Source: Desulfobacterales bacterium (lineage in GTDB: Bacteria; Desulfobacterota; Desulfobacteria; Desulfobacterales; UBA11574). Taken from it: 64,000 bases of DNA. Positions 5,432 to 63,322 of this stretch are shown here, in pieces (the stretch's first letter is position 1; the number at the start of each line of letters is the position of its first letter). The translations under genes and the position numbers were made by a program. Where the stretch lies: assembly GCA_022340885.1 (NCBI GenBank), contig JAJDND010000066.1, forward strand, positions 1 to 64,000. The letters are read 5' to 3'. The notes beneath the pieces are model-generated. The model did no database searches and was not told the DNA's origin. It saw nothing but the letters and a program-made list of their open reading frames with translations.

Positions 5432-5863
5432 ATCTCTCCTCAGACGACACCGGCGTTCATGATGCACTCTGCCATGAAAACCGGTGTTCGTTTGCATAAT
5501 CTAAATCGTATGCATTTTGATGCTTCCCTAAAGAATCATCATTTGGAAGCCAAACTTGGATCGTCTCCCGAGGTCCCCGGTGACAATTAAAAGGAAGTCG
5601 CCGAAAATCAATGGTAGAAGAAATATCGAAGTTAAGTTTTTCAAATGGCGAAAATATTACCATTAAATTAATGCAAAAATCATGCAAAACCTGGCTGTTT
5701 TTTGTTTTCTTTTATTTCAGATAGTTAGCGGTGGCAGTTTGAATTCGGAGAATATGTATGGGAAATGAATACCACATTTCCTGTTACACACATTACACAG
5801 TGGGCAATTTAGGTAACAGGGTGAGAAGTGTGATTTGAGAGGGAAAGCCGGCGATCCATTAGA

Positions 5864-6000
5864 AGCCATCTCAAAATAAAGATTTTGGTTCAAAATCTAG
5901 GCGGAGCCGAGTTTTAACCCGCAGGCATCCTAAAGTAGTCGAGGACTTAAAACGAGGTTCCAACGCTGAGTTTGGGCCAAAAGATTATTTTGAGATGGCT
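5864..6000. repeat. Repeat family A, copy 1 (137 bp nested palindrome)
   Basis: Outer arms agccatctcaaaataa / ttattttgagatggct; inner arms gttttaa / ttaaaac around a ccgcaggcat...gagga core. Confidence 0.85.
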
Positions 6001-6005
6001 AATAG

Positions 6006-9377: not shown

Positions 9378-9521
9378 GAAGTGGTTTCAAAACCTTCAAT
9401 CGAATTTAAGGTCAAGGCGGACTGAGACGGCCAAGCGCAGGAATATCGCGAATATTTCGAGGATTGGCCGTCTCAGTCCATCACAGAGATTGAGTCCGAG
9501 GGGAGGTTTTGAAACCACTTC
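9378..9521. repeat. Repeat family A, copy 2 (144 bp nested palindrome)
   Basis: Outer arms gaagtggtttcaaaacct / aggttttgaaaccacttc (18 bp perfect); inner arms ggactgagacggccaa / ttggccgtctcagtcc (16 bp perfect); core gcgcaggaatatcgcgaatatttcgagga. Confidence 0.92.
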
Positions 9522-9550
9522 TATGCAACCATCAAGCAAGGAGTATTCCG

Positions 9551-62633: not shown

Positions 62634-62730
62634 TGAATTCCGTAAAAAATTGCGAGTACGTATGTGAAACTTTGATTTGGATTAACCGAAATGCCGGATA
62701 ACAGGAAGGAAAATCGACAACAACATAACA

Positions 62731-62970
62731 TCAGCTTCCCTACGCCGGCATGAACCGGATCAGGTTCCAGGGGTCGAAGCTTCAAGCCTCCTCTCAGCCG
62801 ATTTGTGTCGAGACCTTTGAAAAATGTTCATTTTTGTTCAAGTTCAAGGAAGACGAAAATTTTAACCGCAGGAATACATAGAGTATTTTGAGGATTAAAA
62901 TTTGAGCCTAACGTAGAAATTGGGCAAAAAGGGGGGTTTTGCAAAGGTCTCGAATCGGCTCCCCCAGTGA
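62731..62970 (-). ncRNA. TPP riboswitch (minus strand) interrupted in P3 by repeat family A copy 4
   Basis: Minus: tcactgggggagccgatt-[insert]-acacaaatcggctgagaggaggcttgaagcttcgacccctggaacctgatccggttcatgccggcgtagggaa, i.e. THI-box CTGAGA...ACCTGATC...GCGTAGGGAA. Confidence 0.9.
62809..62952. repeat. Repeat family A, copy 4 (144 bp), inside the TPP riboswitch
   Basis: Outer arms cgagacctttgaaaa / ttttgcaaaggtctcg; inner arms aaattttaa / ttaaaattt; core ccgcaggaatacatagagtattttgagga. Confidence 0.9.
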
Positions 62971-63120
62971 CAATAATTTGCTTGCTATCACGGGAGGCTG
63001 TATTTGTCAAACTATCGCTCAACATTTGACTTGGTGTCTTGCGGTCATAGGACACAGATGGATACGAAGGAATATTTGCTTGCAATTTTTTACACCCGCT
63101 GATAAATACATCCCATTAAA

Positions 63121-63208
63121 TCCGGATAGGGGTGTTCTGATTTTATTGCAGAACTGAGAACAAACCCTTTGAACCTGATACAGTTAGCACTGTCGTAGGG
63201 AAATCGGA
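63121..63208 (+). ncRNA. TPP riboswitch upstream of thiD
   Basis: ataggggtgttctgattttattgcagaactgagaacaaaccctttgaacctgatacagttagcactgtcgtagggaaatcgg. Confidence 0.95.
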
Positions 63209-63322
63209 AAACCATGCGTTACGTTTAGATGCCGCCATTCTTTTCAGCGTTTTTCACCCCCCTATGGATATCGTGCTCCCAAGTTAAATTCTAAACCAAC
63301 GGTTTGCATCAGGAGGTTTTTC

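Follow-up and report, generated by a model that had tools for sequence, protein, structure and literature searches.

What are the ~140-bp palindromic repeats that recur in this DNA, how do they move, and why do they keep their ability to fold? The window, that is, the whole stretch under analysis, covers positions 1-64,000 of contig JAJDND010000066.1 from Desulfobacterales bacterium GCA_022340885.1, whose genome (G000) amounts to 3.55 Mb. The probable answer is that the repeats belong to a superfamily of MITEs whose ends are interchangeable and whose conserved interior acts as a folded RNA.

Four copies in the window and their relatives

The window holds three intact copies and one truncated on the right, all on the + strand. 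Copy 1 (5862..6002) is a T2 element of 141 bp with TA on either side (5860-5861 and 6003-6004). Copy 2 (9378..9521) is an intact T1 element of 144 bp, with TA at 9522-9523 on its right and TC, not TA, on its left. Copy 3 (54105..~54196) is a T1 element that has lost its right half, the break falling inside the helix P3 described below, and copy 4 (62810..62951) is a T3 element of 142 bp. These are the four copies listed in the initial annotation, which was also correct in finding no transposase inside them and in describing a near-constant core: the core pattern matches three times in the window against 0.01 expected, and 108 times in the genome against none for the reversed control. Its statement that two intact copies are exactly 144 bp long holds for copy 2, whereas copy 4 reaches that length only if a further C-G pair from its flanks is included; the modal lengths are 144 bp for T1 and 142 bp for both T2 and T3, and the elements span 140-146 bp. 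The folding z-scores of the + strands of the window copies are -13.5, -8.3 and -7.3.

From the genome, in which element contexts were sampled region by region, 98 distinct copies were extracted, of which 58 are T1 (a count that takes in one odd copy, L033, bearing other ends), 30 are T2 and 10 are T3. The outer arms had been thought unique to each copy, but they are common to many copies of one subfamily and instead serve to define the subfamilies.

Copy 4 sits exactly in the P3 loop of a minus-strand TPP riboswitch aptamer (62720..62969), splitting it into a 5' part at 62952-62969 and the rest at 62720-62809. Despite the split, the aptamer is recognized by the Rfam model RF00059 with 49.2 bits (E 9.4e-9), and AGCCGATT before and AATCGGCT after the insertion are still able to pair; the insertion seems to leave the aptamer foldable. 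Downstream are genes for an ABC ATPase, a permease and an NMT1/THI5-like protein; the split riboswitch precedes an ABC transporter operon of the thiamin-precursor type. Another TPP riboswitch, this one intact, was found by an Rfam model scan at 63118-63219 of the + strand.

The elements are widespread among relatives of the host. Search model R1 has matches in 35 of 41 related genomes, where hits per genome were capped, in 77 of the 298 genomes taken from the phylum as a whole and at 113 places in the complete genome G008. By title, the relatives with elements are almost all MAGs of Desulfobacterales or other Desulfobacterota/Deltaproteobacteria, and they combine the same interior with additional types of end. 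In a second phylum, a model of the core (R2) finds 24 copies in one Selenomonas ruminantium MAG and has matches in 16 of 81 genomes belonging to the class of Selenomonas. In the Selenomonas copies, the loops and the strand asymmetry are the same, P3 is shorter, the flanks are TA..TA, and two additional end types appear. Plasmids, phages and viral contigs gave essentially no useful match, and spread on such carriers is thus unsupported. None of the 4,227 Rfam 15 models reached its gathering score on the elements, the sub-threshold matches being of the kind expected by chance, and a literature search by topic and by core letters, with most subscription papers outside its coverage, returned no description of the family. 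The repeat superfamily of these sulfate-reducer relatives is large and apparently undescribed.

A related family of ~125 bp was also observed (L163:1680-1804, L174:3309-3433, L128:3306-3430 and L116:3531-3653). It has GACGGTTTTGTAAAAAGT ends and a different apical hairpin (GTAC...GTAC), and keeps loop 1 (CAAGG/AACGCAG).

Ends, target duplications and transposases

The elements are short, multi-copy and non-coding and are bounded by terminal inverted repeats. In copy 2, these are the left arm at 9378..9397 (GAAGTGGTTTCAAAACC) and the right arm at 9502..9521, which pair with each other as helix P1 in the predicted fold; the same end is found on insertion sequences (ISs) of the IS5 family. DDE_Tnp_1 has no match in the G000 assembly, and the mobilizing enzymes are therefore deduced from relatives. 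When the first loci were searched blindly for these ends paired at IS-sized distances, nothing convincing emerged, and an apparent 1,500-bp T3 “IS” in L309 turned out to be neighbouring MITE copies. Autonomous ISs were found by searching the relatives for DDE_Tnp_1 first and then for the ends.

The TA-flanked ends of T1 and T2 match IS5-family elements: an IS of ~940 bp in L250 (TAGAAGCTGTTTCAAAACC ... GGTTTTGAAATGGCTTCTA) and one of 837 bp in L273 (GAAGCCATCTCAAAA) with the same ends. The best model for both is the IS5-family NF033580, which scores just below its cut-off because the N-terminal piece alone was scanned. The ends of another subfamily, S5, match ISNCY elements. Elements of ~1,670 bp with GTGTCC ends are present in L255, L265 and L266, and the two of these that were tested, L255 and L265, are ISNCY by NF033593, above cut-off. 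L265 and L266 are flanked by 6-bp duplications, TAGATA and TAACTA, of the same form as the TAGTTA found at a few S5 copies. These sequence matches establish the outer arms as terminal inverted repeats of ISs that reside in relatives and belong to two groups, IS5-type and ISNCY. For T3, a third transposase group, another IS5-type, is supported by one end, which adjoins three related IS5-type transposase genes (L274, L275 and L279); no second T3 end was found around them.

Target duplications, which the initial annotation had proposed to look for, occur in fixed lengths: 5 bp in T3, TA in T1 and T2, and 6 bp in S5. Exact 5-bp duplications flank 10 of 23 T3 copies against 0.54 expected from shuffling, and an independent repeat in G008 gave seven against 0.22. 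For T1 and T2, the case is statistical: 53 of 73 copies have the same 2 bp on both sides, almost invariably TA, against 44 expected and a maximum of 49 among 500 shuffles. Copy 2 is missing from the orthologous place in the congener G002, where the flanks are too diverged for a TA duplication to be read. The ends can evidently recombine, since L069 is a chimera of a T2 left end and a T1 right end.

IS-type ends with duplications of fixed length point to DDE transposases. As a mobility class, MITE is well supported for these elements, and we infer that DDE transposases from more than one group move them in trans. The earlier proposal of a non-autonomous mobile element with a maintained fold is upheld, and the covariation, described below, is real.

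The folded interior and its strand

The + strand is predicted to fold into a rod. Its outermost helix, P1, is 15-20 bp long and consists of the transposon ends; inward from it come P2 (~10 bp), internal loop 1, P3, internal loop 2 and the P4 hairpin. In copy 2, P2 pairs 9400..9409 with 9490-9499, as predicted from the fold and from covariation. Internal loop 1 has its 5' strand at 9410..9418 (GGTCAAGGC, motif C-AA-G) and its 3' strand at 9480..9489 (ATCACAGAGA, family motif C-GCA-G), P3 pairs 9419..9434 with 9464-9479, and the core at 9435..9463 consists of loop 2 (GCGCAGG/TCGAGGA) flanking the P4 hairpin. In loop 1, C-AA-G faces C-GCA-G, and in loop 2, C-GCA-G faces C-GA-G. Each strand therefore reads CRAG ... 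CGCAG, and the alignments suggest that the two loops are the same C-GCA-G/C-RA-G motif, placed in dyad about P3. The distance from loop to loop is 18-19 positions in 101 of 107 scorable copies (246 were examined, of which 139 were left unassigned by the script). A P3 length that varies in steps of one helical turn (18 vs 8 bp) was considered but given up, because matches of intermediate length also occur.

The interior from P2 to P4 is common to subfamilies with unrelated ends. In an alignment of 45 copies, the covariation score is 0.407, compared with 0.205 for shuffles and at most 0.103 for slid partners, although the tested structure came from the same alignment of related sequences, which biases the comparison with the slid controls in its favour. 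Both sides have changed in 22 of 40 pairs, and one G.U pair in P4 is kept in all 45 copies. The size of the score gap and the unrelated arms make it unlikely that the covariation is an artefact. Some of the compensatory changes may stem from templated conversion of one arm, the other possibility raised in the initial annotation.

Of 77 copies, 76 (41/42, 27/27 and 8/8 by set) have a + strand that folds better than the - strand, a count in which copies that share ancestry are not independent tests, and the same is true of 22 of 23 divergent representatives drawn from two phyla. Nothing in a plain double-stranded foldback element would account for such an asymmetry. Within subfamilies, paired and unpaired columns diverge nearly alike (7.1% vs 6.9% in T1; 10.5% vs 8.2% in T2), which indicates that individual insertions decay almost neutrally; the constraint would then act on the lineages that go on amplifying rather than on single insertions. 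Covariation of the arms, put forward in the initial annotation, is strong between subfamilies.

Some copies carry secondary inserts of 10-49 nt, most of them hairpin-like when judged by eye. Of 27 such inserts, 21 lie in the internal loops and none in P1 or P2; eight of these come from one duplicated subfamily. The 3' strand of loop 1 is a hot spot. Small hairpin-like inserts (e.g., CTTGTCCCGTCGTAGCTATCGCGAAGATGGA) are seen at loop 1 in L002, L003, L005, L006, L053, L070, L089, L090 and others. They are copied along with the host element and prefer the internal loops.

All 76 scored elements of G008 are intergenic. Between two neighbouring genes of like orientation, the element shares that orientation more often than it opposes it, in a ratio of 33:17 in G008 and 35:23 elsewhere (68:40 pooled, p = 0.009; 46:23 in an earlier, less strict count). 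The bias is modest and varies with the boundaries chosen, and like the junction counts it depends on a home-made gene caller of simple design. In 29 of 62 cases, the right end directly adjoins the stop codon of a neighbour in antisense, compared with 17 of 79 for the left end and a sense neighbour (p = 0.002). Right-end junctions in G008 and G000 often read TA|G, the junction itself providing the stop codon of the antisense neighbour, so that insertion regenerates the stop. GC skew, on which a comparison of replichores depends, is weak in G008.

Could the + strand instead be used as single-stranded DNA? The rod would then extrude during replication and be recognized or protected as a DNA hairpin, in end synapsis or in targeting, and the fold would be a feature of transposition. 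Strand asymmetry and covariation would fit this as well, and the secondary inserts in the loops could reflect insertion into single-stranded DNA loops. However, DDE ends with fixed target duplications need no folded single strand, and the gene co-orientation and the invariant G.U pair fit RNA somewhat better, which leaves the single-stranded DNA reading rather unlikely.

The elements might also be ordinary foldback MITEs with a functionless interior, the loops kept by common descent alone and the pairing by quasi-palindrome repair, a correction of one arm from the other that acts on imperfect palindromes. The similar divergence of paired and unpaired columns and the many compensated changes are in line with such a process. 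Yet under correction the invariant G.U pair and the mismatches inside the element would be expected to disappear and neither strand to be favoured, whereas the loops are conserved across phyla, the + strand is the more stable in nearly all the divergent representatives, and the loop spacing is near-fixed in the scored copies; we consider this origin improbable. A REP/Y1-type or retro-element, driven by the REP-associated Y1 transposase, reverse transcriptase or integrase suggested in the initial annotation, is scarcely credible, as the repeats, though palindromic, intergenic, non-coding and multi-copy, are ~140 bp long and, judged on length and ends, fall outside REP/RAYT, described as a 20-40 bp palindrome with a one-end tag of the GTAG/CGTC type (PMC3733652), and their ends are IS5-type or ISNCY terminal inverted repeats with target duplications of fixed length.

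A proposed role for the interior, and known elements compared

One core is worn with the ends of several transposase families, and it therefore seems to be important in its own right, whichever enzyme mobilizes it. In the favoured reading of a MITE superfamily with a folded-RNA interior, transposases of autonomous copies in the population would act on the ends and move the elements in trans, while the interior would be kept because the + strand is functional when folded as a single strand. We infer a role as RNA: the folded form would most likely exist within host transcripts, in leaders, 3' ends and intercistronic gaps, where a self-folding rod would make the insertion tolerable and the dyad of loops might be bound by a host double-strand RNA-binding protein. 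Lineages would keep the rod and swap ends when the active transposase changes. More tentatively, the rod could be a portable module whose loop dyad is recognized by a dedicated host or element factor, which lends persistence to any hairpin element bearing it, and which has crossed between unrelated transposase systems and between phyla by end exchange. The identity of such a non-autonomous element would lie in its RNA-like interior rather than in its transposase.

MITEs are normally defined by ends that one transposase recognizes. Here, one conserved, strand-specific interior is found with the ends of several transposase groups and in two phyla, with copy numbers that reach about a hundred in a genome. 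The purpose of MITE interiors thereby becomes directly testable.

Geobacter bemidjiensis is a distant relative of the host bacterium. It has multicopy palindromic sequences that, as described in the main text of that report, are likewise palindrome-based families located between genes, a description that gives neither ends nor mechanism (PMC2996986). A close match in mobility is RUP of Streptococcus pneumoniae, a 107-bp MITE with IS630-Spn1 ends, of which about a hundred intergenic copies are known, with ends that match a resident IS and insertion at TA; in contrast to the present elements, RUP has one set of ends, one transposase and no reported structured interior (PMC2229807). ERIC (127 bp) and Correia/NEMIS (107/155 bp) are also MITE-like and form hairpins in transcripts, ERIC with an orientation-dependent effect on mRNA stability and NEMIS RNA as a proposed substrate of RNase III, but their sequences and hosts are different (PMC2229807). 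The Rickettsia palindromic elements (RPE) are of the same size (105-146 bp), form a long hairpin and have inserted within structured RNAs (tmRNA and M1 RNA), as copy 4 has in the TPP aptamer; unlike the uniformly intergenic elements scored in G008, they often lie in frame within protein genes (PMC2229807). For none of RUP, ERIC, NEMIS and RPE is an interior shared across several transposase groups reported (PMC2229807). RUP is thus the parallel for IS-matched ends and TA insertion, ERIC and NEMIS for effects at the RNA level, and RPE for insertion into structured RNAs.
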